Below are positions 35,311-38,197 of a stretch of DNA of 64,000 nt, one piece after another (position 1 is the first letter of the stretch; every line of letters begins with the position of its first letter). Source of the DNA: Nanohaloarchaea archaeon SW_7_43_1 (lineage in GTDB: Archaea > Nanohalarchaeota > Nanosalinia > Nanosalinales > Nanosalinaceae); the NCBI GenBank assembly GCA_003009795.1, contig PXPE01000001.1, positions 818,739 to 882,738 of the forward strand, given 5' to 3'. The notes below the pieces were generated by a model. It searched no databases, was not told the origin of the DNA, and worked only from the letters and a program-made list of their open reading frames with translations. The position numbers and the translations under genes were made by a program.

Positions 35311-35973
35311 TCAGAAATCTTCTAATCCTTTCTGCCCTGCTTCCTTCAGAATTTTCTCTGCCGTACTCCAGGATTTCCTTGTCTCAATAGGAAACCTGCC
35401 TTTCTCCTCCAAGTATTTCTCCAGAAAACTGATAGTCGGTGAATCATGAGGATAACCTGACTTAAAATCATAACCGTACTTTGAATGGAGTTCCTCAATA
35501 TGTTTCTCCCTAGCCGACTTCGCAATAATCGATGCAGCAGAAACAATCGGATAAGTGTCATCTGCACCATGTTCCGCAACAAAATCTCTTTCTCTGAACC
35601 GGGCTGGCAACTCTCTCTTCATCTTGTTGATGAACCGGTCACCGTCTGGTTCTGGAAGATCAACAAGTATCTTATCCGCATCCGATCGCTCAATAACATC
35701 ACAGAAACCTTGGATCTCAATCTCATTCAGACTCATCACTTCACGAAGCTCATCTATTTCAGAAGCCTCAATTTCTTTCAGGAACGGCTCTCCTATCTCC
35801 TTGAGTTCTTTCGCAAGTCTTTCTCTTTTCTTGTCGCTCAGCTTCTTTGAATCCTTGACACCAAGATCCTTAATCTCATCTAGCTTCTCCTCTTCGACCA
35901 TGAAGCCACCTATAAACATAGAACCTATCACAGGTCCTCTAGCCGCCTCATCAAGCCCTAAAATCTCTCGCAT
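35311..35973 (-). CDS. rnhB: Ribonuclease HII
   Basis: RNase HII cuts RNA in RNA-DNA hybrids and removes single ribonucleotides. The protein starts GLDEAARGPVIGSM, holding the first Asp-Glu of the active site. It continues with GVKDSKKLSDKKRE, VDLPEPDGD (third acidic residue region), HGADDTYPIVSAASIIAKSARE and a C-terminal helical tail. The 220-residue length is normal for the archaeal enzyme. It lies 32 bases upstream of endA on the same strand, forming an RNA-processing pair. Confidence 0.95.
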   Translation of the reverse strand: MREILGLDEAARGPVIGSMFIGGFMVEEEKLDEIKDLGVKDSKKLSDKKRERLAKELKEIGEPFLKEIEASEIDELREVMSLNEIEIQGFCDVIERSDADKILVDLPEPDGDRFINKMKRELPARFRERDFVAEHGADDTYPIVSAASIIAKSAREKHIEELHSKYGYDFKSGYPHDSPTISFLEKYLEEKGRFPIETRKSWSTAEKILKEAGQKGLEDF

Positions 35974-36075: not shown

Positions 36076-36483
36076 ATGAAAAGCAAATCGGTCAGTTCTA
36101 AAGACTCATGTAGAAAAATAACAGATGAATACCTAGTAGGACTTATTGATGGAGAAGGAACGATTAATTTAACAAAGTACCCGGATGGCAGAGAAAGACC
36201 TCAGGTTCTTATCTTCAATACATGCAAGAAAATTCTTGACGAAATTAAAAGACAAAGATCACTTACTGCGCCAGTAATGAAAGTCTCAAGAGTCGGAGAT
36301 AACTTGGATAGAAAGAAAAACTGCTACAGAATTCAAATGCGATCAAGATCAGATATCAGGAAAATGTTCGAGCTAATGAAAGAACATAAACCAATAATTA
36401 AGAAACAAGAATTTGAGGAACTATTTGAAAGCACCAAAAACTGGGTATATCACCAAGATAAGCAGCAAGATAGTATAGATTAG
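36076..36483 (+). CDS. Single-motif LAGLIDADG homing endonuclease, free-standing
   Basis: This 135-residue protein has one LAGLIDADG motif near residues 20-31 (YLVGLIDGEGTI), followed by the typical strand pattern and a helical tail. One-motif enzymes act as homodimers on near-palindromic DNA sites. The gene is not inside an intron or intein. It ends 41 bases before the start of the intron-containing initiator tRNA and points in the same direction. The active-site Asp/Glu of the motif and the rest of the domain look intact. It may act on an intron-free allele of the tRNA gene or on a nearby site; this is inference from position. Confidence 0.85.
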   Translation: MKSKSVSSKDSCRKITDEYLVGLIDGEGTINLTKYPDGRERPQVLIFNTCKKILDEIKRQRSLTAPVMKVSRVGDNLDRKKNCYRIQMRSRSDIRKMFELMKEHKPIIKKQEFEELFESTKNWVYHQDKQQDSID

Positions 36484-36490
36484 TTTAAAA
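36484..36490 (+). promoter_or_regulatory. TATA box for the initiator tRNA gene
   Basis: TTTAAAA lies 38 bases before the tRNA 5' end, predicting transcription from about 36513 and a short 5' leader removed by RNase P. It starts immediately after the endonuclease stop codon. A second AT-rich element (CTTAAATG) is closer to the tRNA. Confidence 0.45.
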
Positions 36491-36547
36491 GAATGAGTCA
36501 ACATCTTAAATGATACAATATCATAGCGGGGTGGAGCAGCCAGGAGA

Positions 36548-36590
36548 AGGTAAGTCTTCTGACTTGCTCGGAATGGCTCACCTCCTAATT
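36548..36590 (+). other. Intron 1 of initiator tRNA (D-loop, about position 21/22)
   Basis: Exon AGGA (36542-36545) pairs with intron TCCT (36583-36586), next to a 3-base bulge GAA and an inner stem (GGT/ACC, then AAGTC-TTCT-GACTT). The D-stem GAGC/GCTC serves as outer helix. The 3' bulge is four bases instead of three, so this is a slightly relaxed bulge-helix-bulge and the 3' cut is less certain. Confidence 0.75.
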
Positions 36591-36598
36591 GCTCGTCG

Positions 36599-36628
36599 AA
36601 ATGTTCCGATTGTCGGCACATTGCGAAC
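36599..36628 (+). other. Intron 2 of initiator tRNA (anticodon stem, position 29/30)
   Basis: This is a strict bulge-helix-bulge. Exon TCGT (36593-36596) pairs with intron GCGA (36623-36626). The 5' bulge is CGA and the 3' bulge ACG, each of three bases. The inner stem is AATGT/ACATT capped by CCGA/TCGG. Cutting after the second base of each bulge gives exactly the exon ends that rebuild the anticodon stem. After intron 1 is removed, the outer helix becomes GAGC/GCTC. Confidence 0.88.
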
Positions 36629-36674
36629 GGCTCATAACCCGGAGGTCGAAGGTTCAAATCCTTCCCCCGCTATT

Positions 36675-37322
36675 TCACTTTCGAGTTATTTCTTGCGCCT
36701 TTAGCACATGCTTATTATTCTTAAACCCTATCTCATCTCTAAATTTAGCTAACTGACCCTTGCCGTTCATTTGTATTCTGATTTTGCCTTTACCAATTCC
36801 GTAAGCTCCAAAATTAAATCCTTGACTCTCTAGGATCTTAGTCAACTGATTCTGCATTGGCGAAGGACATATCTTTGTTTCCAATCTGGGATAGAGCGTT
36901 CCGTTATTGTCGGTGAGAACAACAGATCCATCAGTATCAAAATAACCTCTGAACACATATTTCTCCAGAGAATTGTCCATATATCTTTCTGGTATAGTAG
37001 CTCTTTACCATTTCGGCGATTCCTTAAGCCCTATCTCTTCTGTAACAAATTCAAATATCTCTTTCTTAAAGCATCTTATGTCATATGTATTCTCATTCTT
37101 TCTTTTGGCCCCTTCTACTTCGATACTGAAGAGTTCGGAGAACATCTTTTCAACGTAACCTGCATAATATGGTTCATTGCTTGAGAGTGTGACCTTGACA
37201 CAGTGTTGAATAGATTTGCTACCATCACCGCGATCACACCGATACCTTCCTATTGATCCGTCACCAAGCATGATACCGACAAATTCTGCTAGTTCCTCAG
37301 ATCTTAAATCTGGTTTTTTCAT
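36675..37322 (-). pseudogene. Two-motif LAGLIDADG homing endonuclease interrupted by one stop codon
   Basis: Two consecutive pieces in the same minus-strand frame make one LAGLIDADG endonuclease. The N-terminal half has LAEFVGIMLGDGSIGRY (motif 1). The C-terminal half has YVFRGYFDTDGSVVL (motif 2). They are separated by a single TAA at 37005-37007. The codons after it read R-A-T-I-P-E-R-Y before the next ATG at 36980, a plausible linker. Without the stop the protein would be about 215 residues. ATG 37322 has AT-rich promoter-like sequence about 26 bases upstream. The 3' end of the gene is two bases from the tRNA 3' end. The two halves could still be made separately. Confidence 0.85.
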
Positions 37323-37627: not shown

Positions 37628-37984
37628 ATGAAGAAACTAGGAAATGTCCTGATTGAAGTGATGCAGGAACTCTCAAGCGTATCGACTAATGGCTCCGCTC
37701 ACATCAAGATCAACAATCATCTTTGTGAGCCCGAACTTTTCGAGAAGCTTTTCAACTACTTCTCTAAGGGAACCCTTCTTGAGAGAATTGATCTAGATGT
37801 AGATTCCATGAACCCACAGTTGGAATGTGCATGTGGTTACAACGAGATAATTGACGATGTTAAACACAATGGCTACGATAGGTGTCCTTCATGTGGAAGA
37901 TTTGCGGATATAAAGGATCACGAGTATAAACTTCTGGAACCTAATGTGGAAAAGGCGGCACCAAGAAAAAGTATCCGGTTCTAA
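37628..37984 (+). CDS. HypA-like zinc protein
   Basis: This 118-residue protein resembles HypA in order and length: helical N-terminal half, then a zinc ribbon with CAC-G (ECACGY) and CPSCG, ending in an acidic strand (LLEPNVE). The N-terminal Met-His-Glu nickel site of true HypA is absent (it starts MKKLGN), so nickel delivery to hydrogenase is unlikely. No hydrogenase genes are nearby. A TATA-like GTTTAAATAAGG near 37548-37558 suggests a leader of about 50 bases, in contrast to most neighbours. Confidence 0.55.
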   Translation: MKKLGNVLIEVMQELSSVSTNGSAHIKINNHLCEPELFEKLFNYFSKGTLLERIDLDVDSMNPQLECACGYNEIIDDVKHNGYDRCPSCGRFADIKDHEYKLLEPNVEKAAPRKSIRF

Positions 37985-38025: not shown

Positions 38026-38052
38026 TACTGCCAGAATAGCCGGTTACGCGTT

Positions 38053-38126
38053 GGGCCGGTAGCTCAGTCTGGCAGAGCACTAGGCTCTTAACCTAGACGT
38101 CGCGGGTTCGAATCCCGTCCGGCCCA
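38053..38126 (+). tRNA. tRNA-Lys (anticodon CUU), no intron
   Basis: The cloverleaf is complete: acceptor GGGCCGG/CCGGCCC with discriminator A, D-arm GCTC...GAGC, anticodon stem CTAGG/CCTAG around CTCTTAA (anticodon CTT), T-arm GCGGG-TTCGAAT-CCCGT. The gene is uninterrupted and does not encode CCA. Confidence 0.95.
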
Positions 38127-38197
38127 TTTTCATCATTTCGGGTAAGACTGTTTCGGTTTTGTGACCGGTAAACAAGATAGTAGTCTCATTTCACTCT

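Follow-up and report, generated by a model that had tools for sequence, protein, structure and literature searches.

A family of LAGLIDADG proteins encoded beside tRNA genes in archaea and bacteria, with a possible part in the spread of short archaeal tRNA introns

Why should the initiator tRNA gene of an archaeon be interrupted by two short introns and, at the same time, lie between two genes that resemble those for LAGLIDADG homing endonucleases? This arrangement was noticed in a stretch of 64,000 nucleotides (hereafter, the window) of the genome of Nanohaloarchaea archaeon SW_7_43_1, which consists of a single contig of 956,550 bp. The question reaches beyond this locus, as the gain and movement of archaeal tRNA introns are an acknowledged open question (PMC4090602, PMC4496867) and the mechanism of their transposition has been called unknown (PMC4090602). 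The features of the locus, in window coordinates, are as follows.

35311–35973, minus strand: RNase HII gene, in conserved synteny with iMet within the family; our yardstick of host divergence
36076–36483, plus strand: HE1, an orphan candidate endonuclease gene; 135-aa ORF with stop TAG and one LAGLIDADG-like motif (LVGLIDGEG)
36525–36672, plus strand: tRNA-iMet gene (CAT anticodon), 148 nt including two introns; mature tRNA, 75 nt
36547–36589, plus strand: intron 1, 43 nt, at D-loop position 20a/21; absent from the same-genus genome G001
36599–36628, plus strand: intron 2, 30 nt, at position 29/30 with a BHB-type junction; position common to nearly all loci of the HE2 clade
36675–37322, minus strand: HE2, a two-motif LAGLIDADG endonuclease gene of 216 codons including the terminal stop, with one in-frame stop
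37005–37007, minus strand: premature TAA of HE2, between the two LAGLIDADG halves
37628–37984, plus strand: 118-aa ORF; its syntenic counterpart is retained in G001, which lacks HE2
38052–38127, plus strand: tRNA-Lys(CTT), intronless and syntenic in G001

Rfam reports a tRNA at 36525–36672, introns included, with a score of 31.1 bits, and its identity as tRNA-iMet was read by alignment to intronless relatives. Removal of 36547–36589 and 36599–36628 yields a 75-nt initiator tRNA that is accepted by ARAGORN and whose joined exons equal those of G001. Excision of both introns thus restores a canonical tRNA, which confirms the two short introns described in the sequence-only reading. The same reading had considered the introns too short to hold the endonucleases, and this is correct: at 43 and 30 nt they contain neither gene, and both genes flank the tRNA. 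At the 29/30 intron, as read from the sequence and from folds, the exon sequence UCGU pairs with intron GCGA, so that two bulges of 3 nt flank a helix of 4 bp where exons and intron meet, the form of a BHB junction. BHB introns are excised by the tRNA-splicing endonuclease. The exon and intron tetramers covary in most relatives (UCGU-GCGA, CCGU-GCGG, and CCGA-UCGG), with some exceptions. Across all phyla, the 29/30 introns mostly have a GCGGAA- or GCGAAM-like 3' end followed by GGCYCATA; because splicing dictates the same bases, this likeness alone is no evidence of common descent.

HE2 ends with a TGA (36675–36677, minus strand) located 2 bases past the discriminator base of tRNA-iMet, and its 216-codon frame is intact apart from the TAA at 37005–37007. 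The position and family previously assigned to this gene therefore hold, whereas the gene is not open, and the disrupted HE2 is either a pseudogene or an assembly error. HE2 scores over the Pfam cut-off for LAGLIDADG_3. The structural model of an intact homologue (L101) contains two LAGLIDADG helices with two αββαββ repeats (pLDDT 96.7), and both motifs are retained in the window copy, with the stop between them. The top fold matches of the clade I model (clade I being the enzyme clade that includes HE2; see below) are I-Tsp061I, inteins, and I-DmoI, with I-AniI and bI3 maturase also near. Each motif of the clade I alignment retains an acidic residue (GDG and DTDG), with the exception of AR20 (GNG in the first motif), and these residues are kept in nearly all family members. 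For close pairs drawn from clade I and the wider family, dN/dS is 0.10–0.15, which indicates purifying selection. HE2 is thus firmly a LAGLIDADG protein by family and fold, with a predicted endonuclease activity. A search of the window genome with PF00961 gave no match. A phage reservoir for HE2 was considered and rejected; viral contigs hold only LAGLIDADG relatives of ~30% identity.

For HE1, which had been described as a one-motif LAGLIDADG gene ending 41 bases upstream of the tRNA, the position is as given, and the family assignment is weak. Its match to Pfam LAGLIDADG is below the cut-off (E = 0.086), its best match among solved structures is I-AabMI (E = 0.0027), and its structure model is of low confidence (pLDDT 49.8). 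No relatives of HE1 were found in 60 genomes, viral contigs, or phages. HE1 is therefore treated as a weak LAGLIDADG candidate. It is possible, from this single case, that HE1 is linked to the D-loop intron that separates the window genome from its congener G001. D-loop introns also occur without HE1, in G702, L103, G322, and G355.

The family of Nanohaloarchaea that contains the window genome (G000) also includes 'Nanohaloarchaea archaeon PL-Br10_U2g16' (G014, the source of L101), and 19 genomes of this family (f1) were compared. Intron-bearing iMet genes are present in only four of them (G000, G001, G010, and G014), and HE2 homologues only in G010 and G014, sharing 58–59% identity with HE2 and matching it in location, next to RNase HII, and in orientation. 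In genus g7, the introns and HE2 are both present in G014 and both absent from its congener G007; an intronless relative that also lacks the endonuclease, the support that had been hoped for, is thus on hand. G001, which belongs to the genus of the window genome and is perfectly syntenic with it, carries iMet introns at 29/30 and 37/38, and neither HE1 or HE2 nor any remnant was found in its syntenic locus. These comparisons indicate that enzyme and introns are linked and yet that the introns can persist alone. Introns in relatives without an endonuclease, which had been named in advance as counter-evidence, are thus partly seen, in G001 as well as in G101 and G244 (see below). Such intron-only relics are expected of homing cycles, yet show that introns outlast enzymes.

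Host relationships were taken from an RNase HII tree; a 16S tree was given up, as the 16S gene was located in no more than half of the genomes. The four intron-bearing genomes fall into one group with G005 and G007 (92/94), so a single gain followed by losses within f1 is possible and is inseparable from several gains. In G005, an intact, very divergent LAGLIDADG-like ORF (P0002; L032:2432–2982) lies 7 bp from an intronless iMet gene, antisense to it as HE2 is. HE2-like paralogues in f1 also adjoin tRNAs, namely a tRNA-Leu in G010 and an intron-bearing tRNA in G015. The proposal that endonuclease, tRNA, and endonuclease move together as a single cassette is not supported by the comparison, as HE1 is private to the window genome, HE2 is broken there, and the relatives have one flanking enzyme, on either side. 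Outside the window, a frame-broken, degenerate HE2-family copy is located directly upstream of an intronless tRNA-Cys (G000:C1:814280–814642; L181:2691–3442). Four other intron-bearing tRNAs checked in the window genome have no enzyme nearby.

A search of 84,980 genomes with a four-row HE2 alignment, in which the presence of a tRNA was not a criterion, identified 80 loci, mostly in DPANN archaea but also in candidate-phyla bacteria. A tRNA was found ≤300 bp from the ORF at 49 of the 80 loci with a strict finder and at 72 of the 80 when hand-read multi-intron tRNAs were added; the strict finder reported a tRNA in 54 of 612 shifted control windows (8.8%; p ~ 2e-31 vs 49/80). The adjacency of the HE2 family to tRNA genes is far beyond chance. 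On the enzyme tree, 22 rows beside iMet form clade I (support 96) and six rows form a second iMet clade, clade II (100); these are joined by a clade of 10 rows centred on tRNA-Pro (100), eight of which were read as Pro, and by a bacterial clade beside tRNA-Ser-type genes. The tRNA isotype changes 5 times on this tree, compared with 32–42 times in shuffles. Members of HE2's clade lie beside tRNA-iMet in Nanohaloarchaea, Woesearchaeota, Pacearchaeota, and Altiarchaeota. A free-standing endonuclease-like gene that adjoins an intron-bearing gene is the arrangement of collaborative homing, and the association with an intron-bearing essential tRNA suspected at one locus is seen again in numerous genomes and phyla, the enzyme clades being specific to tRNA isotypes.

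Within Nanohaloarchaea, the identities of the enzyme and RNase HII are 56 and 76%, respectively, whereas between Nanohaloarchaea and other phyla they are 46 and 38%. This inversion suggests, as far as such sequence comparison goes, that the enzyme was transferred between phyla; unequal rates could contribute. The RNase HII–tRNA-iMet pair is frequent across DPANN phyla (L031–L039, L091–L093, L241, L102, L114, and others), and this conserved pair may help to place the unit.

Several further arrangements were observed among the family loci. In the tRNA-Pro clade (L121, L123–L125, L134, L138, L166, and L180), the neighbouring tRNA-Pro genes mostly have insertions in the D-arm region. In AR20 (L113:5870–6840, minus strand view), a second family enzyme is located between a complete intron-bearing type II tRNA gene and a truncated copy of its 5' portion, an arrangement reminiscent of an insertion that duplicated some of the tRNA gene. 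In G244 (L228:3016–3090), part of the iMet 5' end (GTTGAGCAGCCAGG) recurs 70 bp upstream of the gene itself, which is intact and intron-bearing; the extra copy is possibly a repair footprint. Some DPANN iMet genes contain four or five introns (D-loop, 29/30, 37/38, variable region, and 53/54 or T-loop), as found at L103:4608–4797, L113 (AR20), L241 (G332), L243 (G161), and L285 (G487).

Wherever a tRNA was visible next to a clade I member, the neighbouring iMet was read. The enzyme is intact in 20 of these cases, and in each of them the iMet is interrupted by an intron between positions 20 and 30 (at 29/30 in 19 cases and, in G702, at 20a/21 only). Broken or truncated clade I enzymes accompany an intron in the window, G133, L114, L116, and G380, and the sole intronless iMet beside a clade I enzyme, that of G061 (L126), has a frameshifted one. 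HE2 of the window is probably a decaying local copy. In clade II, the iMet introns are in the 3' half of the gene (53/54 or variable region), and three genes have the 53/54 intron alone. Altiarchaeales by themselves display all stages: enzyme and intron in G039 and G227, intron only in G101 and G244, a broken enzyme and no intron in G061, and neither in G157 and G295. By a strict pattern, an iMet intron unaccompanied by a clade I enzyme was found in about 17 genomes out of 359, of which three possess a clade II enzyme and several have the locus at a contig edge; in a 371-genome sample, about 14 intron-bearing iMets have no enzyme nearby, some of them at contig edges.

Enzyme and intron are associated in family f1 (intron in 3/3 genomes with HE2 vs 1/16 without, p = 0.004), in a sample of a Nanoarchaeota-type phylum with one strict pattern applied to both groups (5/12 vs 17/359, p = 0.0003), and in a sample of 394 archaea (p ~ 3e-7), the genomes in all three tests being phylogenetically non-independent. 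When intron-size tRNAs were compared within the same loci, no significant excess was found in enzyme-adjacent over other tRNAs (archaea, non-iMet: 14/21 vs 6/18, p = 0.056). The intron asymmetry and the decay states are predicted by a homing cycle if the intron destroys the target; as the host lineages are intron-rich, causation is here proposed rather than observed.

We therefore favour, with a probability of about 0.58, the reading that the HE2 family comprises homing endonucleases of the monomeric, two-motif LAGLIDADG type that are free-standing and specialised for tRNA genes, the HE2 clade being specialised for tRNA-iMet, that these are encoded outside short BHB introns that destroy their targets, and that the window copy is decaying. 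The enzyme would cut an intronless iMet gene roughly within positions 15–40, near 29/30, and the break would be repaired from an intron-bearing allele, by which the intron is copied. Given its distance of only a few to ~250 bases from the tRNA, the enzyme gene would be co-converted along with the intron. The carrier of a short BHB intron (at 29/30 or 20a/21) would be protected, as its recognition site would be destroyed, and the tRNA-splicing endonuclease would take the intron out of the RNA. After fixation, the enzyme would decay, as may be the case in the window and G133, and would then be lost while the intron stays (G001, G101, and G244); the intron could also be lost afterwards (G061).

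The strongest competing explanation, to which we give perhaps one chance in four, is that the family homes intronlessly into the flanks of tRNA genes, which are conserved and essential safe havens, and that the introns are incidental in lineages rich in them. In candidate-phyla bacteria (L148, L151–L154, L157, L160, L161, L164, L170, L174, and L177), the enzyme is mostly located 2–70 bp upstream of intact intronless tRNA-Ser-type genes, and intronless homing at tRNA-Ser is possible for these members. Several archaeal members lie beside tRNAs of 71–74 nt, tRNAs of intron size are common in the same loci, and the enzyme-like ORF of G005 adjoins an intronless iMet. Against this, every one of the 20 intact clade I enzymes is accompanied by an intron in the 20–30 zone, and the lone intronless case has a broken enzyme; the congener pair G014/G007 and the tie between the second iMet clade and 3'-half introns likewise weigh against incidental introns.

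It is also conceivable, though improbable, that the introns are a form of host resistance, selected independently of any co-homing because they destroy the sites of this enzyme or of other elements that target tRNA genes. This extends to the enzyme an idea of Randau and Soell that PMC3293823 cites for integrative elements. It would fit the finding that introns without an enzyme are common and intact enzymes without an intron are not; however, the intact enzyme sits beside the intron-bearing gene and not elsewhere in the genome, and enzyme and intron are jointly absent in G007 and jointly present in its congener. That HE2-type proteins are instead LAGLIDADG maturases or splicing helpers for the adjoining pre-tRNA is very unlikely: the fold does match I-AniI and bI3 maturase and the genes do adjoin multi-intron tRNAs, but the same introns occur without the gene in G001, G101, G244, and others, bacterial members lie beside intronless tRNAs, the acidic residues of the motifs are conserved in nearly all members, and BHB introns are already removed by the tRNA-splicing endonuclease.

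If the homing cycle operates as proposed, a tRNA-dedicated endonuclease family of DPANN archaea and CPR bacteria, divided into isotype-specific clades, would drive the gain and spread of short archaeal tRNA introns from outside the introns and would supply the missing mechanism of intron gain; for this broader claim, we consider the odds to be even. Its interest is high, since the origin of archaeal tRNA introns would become accessible to experiment: enzymes in isotype-matched clades, found intact only at presumed targets that carry an intron, provide a concrete mechanism open to enzyme assays. It would also account for the iMet genes with four or five introns, carry collaborative homing from phages over to cellular tRNA genes, and supply new LAGLIDADG enzymes with a natural specificity for tRNA genes.

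Free-standing homing endonucleases, collaborative homing, and BHB introns are each already known (PMC2988022, PMC4090602, PMC4496867). In the openly accessible, published literature that was searched, no account was found of LAGLIDADG enzymes that are devoted to tRNA genes or associated with archaeal tRNA introns. The tRNA intron transposition of Thermoproteales (Fujishima 2010, in PMC4090602) likewise involves BHB introns that were gained and spread at non-canonical positions, but no endonuclease is known for it and that source states the mechanism as unknown. LAGLIDADG proteins, including LAGLIDADG_3, occur in the same bacterial groups in CPR rRNA insertions (PMC11270868); those proteins reside inside 16S/23S rRNA insertions, and the text of that paper never mentions tRNA. 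I-DmoI and I-Tsp061I of archaeal rRNA introns are the nearest to HE2 in solved fold and sequence, and their BHB introns are also spliced by the tRNA endonuclease; they are encoded inside the rRNA intron, whereas HE2 lies outside tRNA introns of 30–43 nt. T4 SegB (PMC2988022) is similarly a free-standing homing endonuclease encoded amid tRNA genes, which it targets, but it is a GIY-YIG enzyme of a phage with an intergenic target and no introns. A close parallel is the free-standing mobE beside nrdA/nrdB, a case of collaborative homing in T-even-like phages (reviewed in PMC2988022). The phage systems involve HNH or GIY-YIG enzymes and group I introns, in contrast to the LAGLIDADG proteins, tRNA BHB introns, cellular archaeal genomes, and predicted cleavage described here; in both, a free-standing endonuclease that is not intron-encoded lies by a conserved gene, with the intron/exon junction as its presumed target.
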